From Nautilia profundicola AmH (GTDB taxonomy: Bacteria > Campylobacterota > Campylobacteria > Campylobacterales > Nautiliaceae), in NCBI RefSeq assembly GCF_000021725.1, contig NC_012115.1, positions 769,001 to 833,000 on the forward strand: DNA of 64,000 bases. Reading direction: 5' to 3'. Shown here piece after piece: positions 278 to 3,812 of the stretch; the first letter of the stretch is position 1; each line of letters starts with the position of its first letter. Position numbers and translations under genes: made by a program. A model generated the notes under the pieces. That model did no database searches and had not been told where the DNA came from. It worked only from the letters and a program-made list of their open reading frames with translations.

Positions 278-670
278 ATGACAATAATAGAGCTTAAAAA
301 AATGATGATGAAAGCAAAAAAAGAAGATAAAACAAAAGCAAACGCACTTATGATGCTTGTGGATTCAGCTCAAAAAATTGCAAAAGAAAAGGGTGAGGAA
401 GTTAGCGAAAAAACTATCCAGGAAGCTGCTAAAAAGCTTGCTAAAATGGCAAAAGAATCAATAGAAGCAGGAATGGAAGAAGCTAAGAAAGAACTTGAAA
501 TATATGAAAGTTTCTTGCCTAAAATGCTTGGAGAAGAGGAAACAACTAAAATCGTTAAAGAAATCATCGATGAAATAGGCGGTAAAAATATGGGTGAAAT
601 TATGAAAAGACTAAAAGCAAGAGGTGATATTGATATGGCTCTTGCGAGTAGGATTATTAAATCACTTTAA
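278..670 (+). CDS. GatB/YqeY-domain protein
   Basis: The product is 130 residues, almost all helical and rich in lysine and glutamate. It matches the YqeY family, which resembles the tRNA-binding tail domain of GatB. The C-terminal half carries the family pattern: YESFLPKML, then a helix, GGKNMGEIMKRLK, and ALASRII near the end. The ATG at 278 is preferred over an in-frame upstream start at 245 because AAAGGAG lies just before it and the upstream codons overlap mnmE. The exact role of free-standing YqeY proteins is not settled; tRNA or amidotransferase association is an inference. The last 9 bases overlap the end of the convergent glutamate dehydrogenase gene. Confidence 0.85.
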   Translation: MTIIELKKMMMKAKKEDKTKANALMMLVDSAQKIAKEKGEEVSEKTIQEAAKKLAKMAKESIEAGMEEAKKELEIYESFLPKMLGEEETTKIVKEIIDEIGGKNMGEIMKRLKARGDIDMALASRIIKSL

Positions 671-3600
671 TAATTGAAGAATTAAAGAATTGGCTATATG
701 AGAAAGAAGGGTTAGAGATTTTTTCTCTTTTTTTATTTTTTTAATCTCTTCAATAATATCTTCATATTCGTCATTTTTTCTTTTTATATAATTATCAAAA
801 GAACGTTTTAAGTTTTTGGCATTAAAATCGGAAGAATTTATAACCTCTTTTGCAAAAGTAATAACAAAGTATTCTATCAATCTTTCAACTTCTTCTTTTA
901 AATTTTTATCTAATCTGTTTTTTGGTTTTATACTTTTTATAGTTTTGAGTATTGTGTTGATTTTAAATTTCGTGATAATTAATTTGAACAGATTTAAGAT
1001 TGTTTTTAAATCAAGATTATATTCGTGTTTAATCATAAACATTGCAGGTAAAAATTTATAAAAGTCTTTCCATTTTTCATATATTTCAAGTTCGTTTTGC
1101 TGATTTATGAGTTTTCTTAAGTCGTCTTTGTATGTGATAAATAAAAGAGGTTTAATATTACTGTTTTCAAGAGATTTTACCATCCATTTAACGGCAAATT
1201 TAATTGTTTGCTCTACGTCGATTAAAAGGTCATATTGTTTATTTACGTCATTAACATTTTGAATGATTTCTTTTCTTAAAACGTCCGCATTAATAAGTTC
1301 GTTCATTATTAAATAACTCTCTATTTTATATTTAAACGATTTTTCATGGTAATCACTAATAAAGCCTATTCCGTGAGCATTTATGATTTTGTTGGCTATT
1401 TGTGTAGCAATAATTTCTTTTTTTAAAGGATGTGAAAAAATTTCATGTTCGAATTTGTTGAAAAAAGATTCTGGAAAATATTCTTTTAAAAATTTATCAT
1501 AATAATTTGAATCTAATACGTTCGATTCTAATATATATTTTTTCAAAAATATTTTGCTGTAAAGCATAACTATAGCGAGTGCAGGCCTTATTACGTGAGT
1601 ATTTTGATATAGAGTTTCTATTTCACTATTTTTCGGCATATTATAATTTTTTCTTTTAAAATAATCGGTATTTTTTTCTAAGATTTCCAAAACTTTGATC
1701 AATTTTTCTTTATATATTTTTTTCTCATCCAATGATAATAACAAAGCATGTTCAAAATTGTTTTGTAACACCTTGTCAATTACATCGTTTTGAATTTCTT
1801 TTAAGATTTTAATTTTTTCATTTTCTGTAAGTTTGTTTTTATCGATTAAACTGTTCAGAATAATTTTTAAATTTACTTCATAGTCACTTATATTAACACC
1901 TGCGGAATTATCAATAGCATCAAGATTGATTTTACCGCCTTTAAGAGCGTATTCATATCTTCCTTGCATTGTAAGAGCTAAGTTTGCACCTTCACAGATA
2001 GCAAAAGCGTTTATTTCATTTGCATTTACACGAATATTTGCATTTTGCTTATCACTAATGTGGAGGTTTTGCTCTTCTGAAGATTTTACGTAAGTTCCGA
2101 TTCCTCCGAAATATAATAAATCAACTTTTAAACGTAATAGTCTTTTTGCCAATTCTTCCGCACTTAAAGATTCTTCTTTAGTGTTTAAAAGTTCTTTTAT
2201 TTCAGGAGAAAGGGTTATTGATTTTTCATCTCTTTTGAAAACACCTCCGCCTTTACTAATTTTAGATTTATCATAATCTTTCCAGCTTAGAGAGTTTTCA
2301 AAAAGTCTTTTTCTTTCTTCATATGCAATTTTCGGATCCGGATTAGGATCGATAAAGATTTCACTGTGGCTAATTGCTCCTAATAATAAGAAGTTTTTGT
2401 TTAATAGCATACCGTTTCCGAAAACGTCCCCTCTCATAGAACCTACACCGACAACAGAAAGTTTGTCTGTATAGATGTTTTGACCTCTTTCTATAAAGAA
2501 TCTATTAGTTGTGTGAATGGCGCCCTTTGCTGTAATACCTAACTCTTTATGAGAATATCCGGTACTTCCTCCGCTTGCAAAAGCATCTTTTAAAAAGTAT
2601 CCTCTTTTTATAGCTATTTCATTTGCAACATCGCTCATTGAAGAAGTTCCTTTATCAGCTGCCACAACAAAATAAAAGTCGTTTTCATCATATTTTACAA
2701 GTTCAACGTCCCCGACGTCAATCAAATCCAATAAAGCGTCTATAAATAAAGAATAATATTTTTTAAAGTCTTTTTTAGAAATATTATTTTTGAATATTAC
2801 AAATCCGCCTTTGGCGCCTTCCGGAATAATAAGGGCGTTTTTTGCTTCCTGAGTTATCATTAAGTCTTTTATTTCATCTCTGAAGTCATGAGGTCTGTCA
2901 GACCATCTTAATCCGCCTCTACTTATTTTACTCATTCTTAAATGGATACCGTTAAAGTCGTTGTGATAAACGTAACTCTCTATATTGGGTTGCATTCCAA
3001 AAAGAATATTTTTAAAATTTTGTGTTAAGACTTTAAAAGAAATAGTTTCTTTATTTAAAAAATAATTCGTCCTTACTGTATTTTTGACTATTGTAAATAA
3101 AACTCTAAATATTTTATCTTCGTTTAAATTTGAAATGTTTTTGATTTCTTTTTCTATTTTTTCTTCAAGGGACAAATCTTTTGTAGAAAATTTTTGTTTA
3201 AAATACTCTATTATCATTTTCGTTAATTTAGAATTATTTAATAATGCTGAAATAATCAAATTTTCATTAAATTCGTAAAAAAGTTGATTTTGATATTTGA
3301 TAATAGCTCTTAGTAAAGAAATTTCTCTTAAAGTAAGGCCTTCCCAAGCCATATAGTAAAGTTTACACAGGGTGTATATTTTATTTAACAGGGCTTTTTC
3401 AAGTATTTCTAAAAATATTTTTTCGTGTTTTAAGAATGTATCAATATGCTGTATATCTGTTTTTATTTTATAAACATAAGTGTTTTTATTTATAAATGAA
3501 ACGGAATCTAATATTGATATATTGAAATTTTGTAAAAGGTTGCTTATTGTTGTAATAGGAAGTTTGTTTTTGGAGTATATATGGAAAGTTTGAGTGTTTT

Positions 3601-3682
3601 TGTCAAAAGAGAGATATACTTCGTTGAAGTTTGGTATTTCATAGTCTTCTTTAGATATTAACTGTTTGCATAAATCGTTCAT
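662..3682 (-). CDS. NAD-specific glutamate dehydrogenase, large type
   Basis: The 1006-residue product is a member of the large NAD-dependent glutamate dehydrogenase family, which deaminates glutamate to 2-oxoglutarate and ammonium. Around residues 250-275 it has the substrate-site signature SRGGLRWSDRPHDFRDE, then IPEGAKGGF with the catalytic-type lysine. A nucleotide-binding region follows, with GGIGTYVK and CEGANLALTMQGR. It is shorter than the 1600-residue GdhB of Pseudomonas, so the N-terminal ACT-like regulatory region is reduced, but the core is complete. The ribosome site is weak. Its 5' flank holds a 19-codon gene and a hairpin, discussed separately. The stop overlaps the YqeY-like gene tail to tail by 9 bases. 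Confidence 0.9.
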   Translation of the reverse strand: MNDLCKQLISKEDYEIPNFNEVYLSFDKNTQTFHIYSKNKLPITTISNLLQNFNISILDSVSFINKNTYVYKIKTDIQHIDTFLKHEKIFLEILEKALLNKIYTLCKLYYMAWEGLTLREISLLRAIIKYQNQLFYEFNENLIISALLNNSKLTKMIIEYFKQKFSTKDLSLEEKIEKEIKNISNLNEDKIFRVLFTIVKNTVRTNYFLNKETISFKVLTQNFKNILFGMQPNIESYVYHNDFNGIHLRMSKISRGGLRWSDRPHDFRDEIKDLMITQEAKNALIIPEGAKGGFVIFKNNISKKDFKKYYSLFIDALLDLIDVGDVELVKYDENDFYFVVAADKGTSSMSDVANEIAIKRGYFLKDAFASGGSTGYSHKELGITAKGAIHTTNRFFIERGQNIYTDKLSVVGVGSMRGDVFGNGMLLNKNFLLLGAISHSEIFIDPNPDPKIAYEERKRLFENSLSWKDYDKSKISKGGGVFKRDEKSITLSPEIKELLNTKEESLSAEELAKRLLRLKVDLLYFGGIGTYVKSSEEQNLHISDKQNANIRVNANEINAFAICEGANLALTMQGRYEYALKGGKINLDAIDNSAGVNISDYEVNLKIILNSLIDKNKLTENEKIKILKEIQNDVIDKVLQNNFEHALLLSLDEKKIYKEKLIKVLEILEKNTDYFKRKNYNMPKNSEIETLYQNTHVIRPALAIVMLYSKIFLKKYILESNVLDSNYYDKFLKEYFPESFFNKFEHEIFSHPLKKEIIATQIANKIINAHGIGFISDYHEKSFKYKIESYLIMNELINADVLRKEIIQNVNDVNKQYDLLIDVEQTIKFAVKWMVKSLENSNIKPLLFITYKDDLRKLINQQNELEIYEKWKDFYKFLPAMFMIKHEYNLDLKTILNLFKLIITKFKINTILKTIKSIKPKNRLDKNLKEEVERLIEYFVITFAKEVINSSDFNAKNLKRSFDNYIKRKNDEYEDIIEEIKKIKKEKKSLTLLSHIANSLILQLLK

Positions 3683-3696
3683 AAAAGCTCATTTTC

Positions 3697-3746
3697 AAAA
3701 GAAAAAGAAGTTATTTCGTATATAAAACTCTTCTTCTTTTTCTTTT
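3697..3746 (-). terminator. 14-bp perfect inverted repeat, possible terminator or attenuator
   Basis: The arms at 3697-3710 and 3733-3746 are perfect reverse complements (AAAAGAAAAAGAAG against CTTCTTTTTCTTTT on the minus strand), separated by 22 bases. On the minus strand the right arm is itself T-rich, as an intrinsic terminator tail would be. The left arm lies inside the codons of the 19-residue gene and the right arm begins right after its stop. The glutamate dehydrogenase start follows 14 bases later. The stem has only three G-C pairs, so it may be weak. Purine-rich Lys/Arg codons facing a pyrimidine run could also produce it by chance. Confidence 0.5.
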
Positions 3747-3770
3747 CATTTTAAATTTTCCTCTTGCCAT
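3711..3770 (-). CDS. 19-residue Lys/Arg-rich mini-protein or leader peptide
   Basis: A very short reading frame encodes MARGKFKMKRKRRRVLYTK, with ten basic residues in nineteen (five AGA and five AAA codons). Its ATG is preceded by a full AGGAGG with 4 bases of spacing, one of the best ribosome sites in the window. An extended -10 box lies about 24 bases upstream of that site. The gene therefore looks like an independent unit between the MEMO gene and the glutamate dehydrogenase gene. I do not recognise a family. Very basic peptides of this size occur among small ribosomal proteins (Thx or COX24-like types). A leader peptide controlling the downstream gene is the other option. Confidence 0.6.
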   Translation of the reverse strand: MARGKFKMKRKRRRVLYTK

Positions 3771-3803
3771 ATAACCTCCTTTTTTGGGAAGTTAACGTTT
3801 GTA

Positions 3804-3812
3804 ATTATAACA
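3804..3812 (-). promoter_or_regulatory. Extended -10 promoter for the 19-codon gene
   Basis: The minus strand reads TGTTATAAT here, a perfect extended -10 element. It lies between the MEMO stop (3823) and the mini-gene. Initiation would fall near 3797, leaving a leader of about 27 bases before the ATG at 3770. No clear -35 box is visible, which is usual for sigma-70 promoters of Campylobacterota. Confidence 0.6.

Follow-up and report, generated by a model that had tools for sequence, protein, structure and literature searches.

bTHX is a tiny basic peptide in the small ribosomal subunit of a thermophile. In the ribosome of Borrelia burgdorferi, an unannotated bS22 was found that is encoded by a gene of 93 nt, contains 61% Lys and Arg, and is invariant but for one position; mass spectrometry by itself had failed to detect it (PMC10618245). 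The pocket occupied by bS22 holds the 24-residue eL41 in eukaryotes, and the authors of that study anticipate more such proteins among other bacteria (PMC10618245). With respect to the layout of a short message, the closest described system is aapA3/IsoA3 of Helicobacter pylori, in which an upstream anti-Shine-Dalgarno sequence hides the Shine-Dalgarno (SD) site and a further hairpin reaches into the open reading frame (PMC6733600).

The microprotein gene described here lies on the minus strand of the window, the stretch of 64,000 nucleotides that was analyzed, which corresponds to positions 769001-833000 of the complete 1,676,444-base genome of the vent bacterium Nautilia profundicola AmH. 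As a sequence-only reading of this DNA had claimed, an extended -10 element, an AGGAGG, a frame of 19 codons and a stop are present in that order within positions 3812-3711, and ten of the 19 residues (53%) are Lys or Arg. Four bases separate the AGGAGG from the ATG at 3770, and the mRNA would be roughly 110 nt long. The features of the locus are the following.

3812-3804, minus strand: extended -10 element TG-T-TATAAT, TGTTATAAT, read from the sequence, with a T-rich stretch immediately upstream
3768-3797, minus strand: predicted leader hairpin hiding the SD, with a core of ACTTCC (3792-3787) paired to GGAGGT (3779-3774), from duplex energies
3780-3775, minus strand: SD site AGGAGG, read from the sequence and kept in homologues
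3770-3711, minus strand: 19-codon open reading frame plus TAA, MARGKFKMKRKRRRVLYTK, by translation (ARGKFKMKRKRRRVLYTK is the peptide without its initial Met), with homologues in the family and signs of purifying selection
3733-3746, minus strand: 5' arm of the predicted stop-codon hairpin, AAAAGAAAAAGAAG, within Lys/Arg codons, a perfect 14-base complement of 3710-3697
3713-3711, minus strand: TAA stop codon of the microprotein frame
3697-3710, minus strand: 3' arm of the predicted stop-codon hairpin, the pyrimidine tract CTTCTTTTTCTTTT, directly 3' of the stop, from a cognate pairing test
662-3682: gene of an NAD-glutamate dehydrogenase, downstream of the microprotein gene

The chance background was taken from 464 kb of the same genome, comprising the window and 20 stretches, where the frames counted were those that start at ATG, span 12-40 codons and encode 40% or more Lys and Arg. 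Apart from its own internal ATG, the microprotein frame is the only one of this class that combines an SD-like site with an upstream TATAAT. Two other such frames have an SD-like string without a TATAAT, and no comparable frame was found in eight random Markov sequences of 64 kb.

Homologue and synteny searches in Campylobacterota revealed the gene in 17 of 21 Nautiliaceae genomes, representing all five genera, with a single copy per genome. In every carrier genome except G113, which represents the most divergent genus, it stands directly 3' of Memo (Pfam PF01875), which adjoins a radical SAM gene. The extended -10, located 27-39 nt 5' of the ATG, reads TGNTATAAT in 14 of 16 distinct homologue sequences, and the remaining two have near-variants, TATTATAAT in one and TGCTAAAAT in the other. 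A GGAG site is found 5-7 nt 5' of the ATG in all 16. This comparison shows the putative promoter, the SD, the start and the stop to be conserved.

Four genomes of the family gave no match to the gene. The contigs of G109 and G112 end just past the radical SAM gene, and the whole locus is missing from G111; these three absences are therefore assembly gaps. The sequence of G106 (L124) covers the terminal part of Memo and continues past it without a microprotein gene, and no copy occurs elsewhere in this 70%-complete assembly; the absence at the usual place is genuine. The copy in G107 (L098 1501-1560), MVREKFKMKGKRRRILYSK, looks decayed, as it has no SD and each of its four base changes relative to L091 alters an amino acid. 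The decay in G107 and the absence in G106 indicate, therefore, that the gene is not indispensable, at least in genus g52, to which both genomes belong. Both cases may reflect true loss of the gene, although a fault in the assembly could also account for G107.

Outside the Nautiliaceae, no credible homologue was found in about 400 genomes of the class and about 300 of the phylum, nor any relative in the viral contigs searched, and as far as sampled the microprotein is restricted to this family. Weak profile matches outside the family (E 0.01-1) mostly lack an initiation codon or cover the peptide only partially, and the best tblastn match (G074) is an out-of-frame stretch of a threonyl-tRNA-synthetase-like gene.

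The peptides of the family are 19-20 residues long, with the variants MARGKFKMKRKRRRVLY(S/T)K, MAKGKFKMKRKRRRVLYSR and MPRGKFRLKRKRRRVLYSK, and MPRGKFRLKRKRRRVLGGKK in G113. Residues M1, G4, K5 and F6 and the run KRKRRRVL are invariant. Over codons 2-16, the G113 gene differs from that of L013 at 13 of 45 bases and from that of L012 at 14 bases, in both cases with no amino-acid difference. Random substitutions would alter about eight residues, against an observed zero (simulation P<5e-5). Arginine codons interchange among AGA, AGG, CGG and CGA with retention of the arginine. Nearer species pairs have too few changes for any single pair to be decisive; in the informative comparison, that with G113, the changes are overwhelmingly synonymous. 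This pattern of codon changes shows strong purifying selection on the encoded amino-acid sequence. The proposal of a real, stand-alone tiny gene is borne out by the conservation of start, ribosome site and amino acids in relatives, and on these comparative grounds the gene is almost certainly translated.

Sequence searches of Pfam, NCBIfam and the PDB with the microprotein gave no real match, and no ribosomal protein family or PDB chain was matched by sequence. The Thx, COX24_C and L41 models are present in the Pfam copy used and recognize known members, with 46 bits for a known bS22 against PF08213 and 64.6 bits for Thx against PF17070. PF08213 (bS22/COX24_C) found no match in the peptide family at E<=10 and none in the genome, PF17070 (bTHX) none in the peptide or elsewhere in the genome, and PF05162 (eL41/eS32) likewise none in either. 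The similarity between the microprotein and bS22 was no better than that of shuffled sequence (p 0.47-0.68). Judged by sequence, the peptide is not a Thx, COX24/bS22 or eL41 protein, and the earlier suggestion of a Thx or COX24-like character is unsupported as a statement of family membership. Homology to eL41 through a shared RLKRKRR had a shuffle p of 0.05 before correction for five targets, is not beyond composition, and is a lead at most. The microprotein family was not found in a literature search whose coverage left out most subscription journals, and is apparently undescribed.

Two hairpins predicted in the mRNA, one in the leader and one at the stop codon, are a new observation, absent from the sequence-only reading. 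In the leader, the SD is preceded at a short distance by ACUUCC, ACUUUC or CUCC, which has GGAGGU as its partner. In 15 homologues, the duplex between the 16 nt 5' of the SD and the SD has an energy between -4.6 and -8.0 kcal/mol, with a shuffle p<=0.051 in 12 of them. Among 88 other genes of the genome, the mean of the leader duplex is -0.9, and one gene lies at or below -7. Folding of predicted transcripts, assumed to begin 7 nt 3' of the -10, leaves the SD mostly paired in the majority of homologues even at 55-60 °C; it is half open in L013, and in L007 its partner is a distant site. A leader hairpin that would sequester the SD of this short mRNA is thus supported statistically. It is missing from the divergent G113, and translational control would therefore not be universal.

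Among the 88 genes checked, the strongest SD masking belongs to the leader of a CorA-like magnesium transporter gene (ACCTCC-AATA-GGAGGT), located outside the window on the minus strand at L131 ~13363 (G000:C1 ~213363). More inverted repeats are seen by eye upstream of this gene, which looks like a regulated leader.

The second predicted hairpin spans the stop codon. In the window, the coding arm (3746-3733) perfectly complements the tract just past the stop (3710-3697), and in species whose codons 9-11 have undergone a synonymous A-to-G substitution, the 3' tract usually has a C to match (L004, L097, L009, L090, L091). Cognate arms pair more strongly than non-cognate arms (mean -14.5 vs -13.1, permutation 5e-5, a probability that is optimistic since the rows are related), and for the 15 homologues, shuffles of the tract gave p values that range from <0.001 to 0.38. 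No end of 45 other long frames in the window pairs at or below -14 kcal/mol. As the register of the long stem differs from species to species, RNAalifold on a MAFFT alignment recovers no more than the 4 apical bp, and the hairpin was instead assessed through duplex energies against shuffles and through the cognate/non-cognate permutation. A scan for intrinsic terminators had no match at 3746-3697, and Rfam had none in the window. The hairpin across the stop codon, which is likewise missing from G113, has statistical support as a predicted structure; that it protects or ends the transcript is a guess.

The peptide probably binds RNA, and its KxKRKRRR core would be the part that contacts structured RNA. 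Our best explanation, which we hold tentatively, is a lineage-specific RNA-binding microprotein whose translation is restrained, and which most likely is bound to the ribosome and works like bS22 or eL41. It would then be a small ribosome part in the manner of bS22/mS38/eL41 or Thx; bS22, mS38 and eL41 are basic peptides that thread into a pocket of rRNA where the two subunits meet. By holding translation at a low or conditional level, the leader hairpin would prevent the peptide from exceeding its RNA partner. The profile shared with Borrelia bS22 (a short, charged and near-invariant product, good expression signals and a single copy) points by analogy to ribosome binding as the likeliest role, although we place only guarded confidence in it. 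With no credible homologue among the other phylum genomes sampled, the peptide does not answer a general ribosomal need, and the g52 genomes G106 and G107, in which the gene is lost or decayed, make the ribosome-bound reading somewhat less likely. Known small ribosomal peptides of such kind are also patchy among bacteria. Autoregulation through the leader is possible, if rather unlikely. The more specific proposal of a 19-residue Nautiliaceae ribosome part that reached the bS22/eL41 pocket by convergence and feeds back on the SD-masking leader is improbable.

Ranked second, after the ribosome-bound role, is a free regulator with an arginine-rich motif that acts outside the ribosome, either on the message that encodes it or on further transcripts, and whose targets would be the hairpins of that message. 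An Arg/Lys core is typical for RNA-binding peptides, the mRNA itself carries two conserved hairpins, and sequestration of the SD offers a ready control point. The G113 homologue, however, retains the peptide without either hairpin, which argues for a duty of the peptide that is independent of them, and the near-total invariance suits a fixed structural site at least equally. We consider this reading unlikely.

A type I toxin similar to AapA/IsoA, in which SD-sequestering hairpins are combined with an antisense RNA antitoxin, is very unlikely. The layout of the mRNA, with its upstream anti-SD, predicted SD-sequestering structure and hairpin involving the reading frame, is like that of aapA3 (PMC6733600), a weak antisense -10 (TATAAA) is seen by eye in the conserved Val-Leu-Tyr codons, and loss or decay in two genomes suits a dispensable toxin. 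That antisense -10, however, matches at 5/6 positions and has no TGN extension, the peptide has no run of hydrophobic residues, and the single-copy gene, nearly family-wide and almost invariant, shows a conservation that is high for such a toxin.

The sequence-only reading had also offered a leader peptide; the form considered in the present analysis is an attenuator for the NAD-glutamate dehydrogenase that would sense Arg/Lys supply or the passage of ribosomes through the stop hairpin. The microprotein stop in the window is followed after 28 nt by the ATG of the dehydrogenase, and the hairpin is partly built of Lys/Arg codons. Loci with the dehydrogenase next in line have a slightly stronger stop hairpin (Mann-Whitney p=0.049), a weak lead. 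In G107, the dehydrogenase gene beside the apparently decayed microprotein copy is also broken (L098). The dehydrogenase follows, however, in roughly half of the loci. Seven or more distinct species have none there and yet retain promoter, SD and peptide; the dehydrogenase gene is broken in L098 and missing at this locus in L007, L013, L012, L089, L091 and L010. In the six dehydrogenase-less species inspected, the next gene is convergent, being GatB/YqeY-like or, in L010, a different one. In G113, the microprotein gene has moved to a place between unrelated genes, with ~350 non-coding nt after it. Residues other than Arg and Lys are invariant, and the Arg codons vary. The gene is therefore not a leader of the dehydrogenase: as a general role, that of a leader peptide is refuted, and little credence is left for this reading.

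A substrate or accessory peptide for the adjacent Memo/radical SAM (AmmeMemoRadiSam) pair is hardly credible, even though the gene follows Memo in all carriers but one and short peptides are often substrates of radical SAM enzymes, because Memo occurs without a peptide gene after it in other Campylobacterota and in G106, Memo and the microprotein gene lie on different contigs in the relocated G113 and are therefore not tied to each other, and the peptide has no Cys and does not retain Tyr17 in G113.

The ribosome-bound microprotein remains the preferred reading. Whatever its role, the locus presents an autonomous gene that, with 19 codons, is shorter than gene callers usually accept and in which selection on the protein is visible across a bacterial family, and its message of roughly 110 nt is a clear case of RNA structure and protein sequence constrained together. 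Compared with aapA3, whose product is a toxin of 30 residues paired with an antisense RNA, the microprotein is without a hydrophobic segment. bTHX, at 27 residues, has another motif. eL41/eS32 is likewise a single short basic peptide, and RLKRKRR is common to the microprotein and the MPRGKFRL variant, but it has 24-25 residues (more in Archaea) and is known from Archaea and eukaryotes. bS22/mS38 resembles the microprotein in being very short and highly basic, in lacking annotation in some genomes and in its near-invariance within a lineage (PMC10618245), although bS22 has 30-33 residues as against 19-20. bS22/COX24_C is seated in the 16S h2/h27/h44/h45 pocket. If the microprotein is bound to the ribosome, it would be shorter than eL41, and unrelated micro-peptides would in other lineages fill the rRNA pockets that bS22 and eL41 occupy; if it occupies the bS22/eL41 pocket, it would be the shortest ribosomal protein known.
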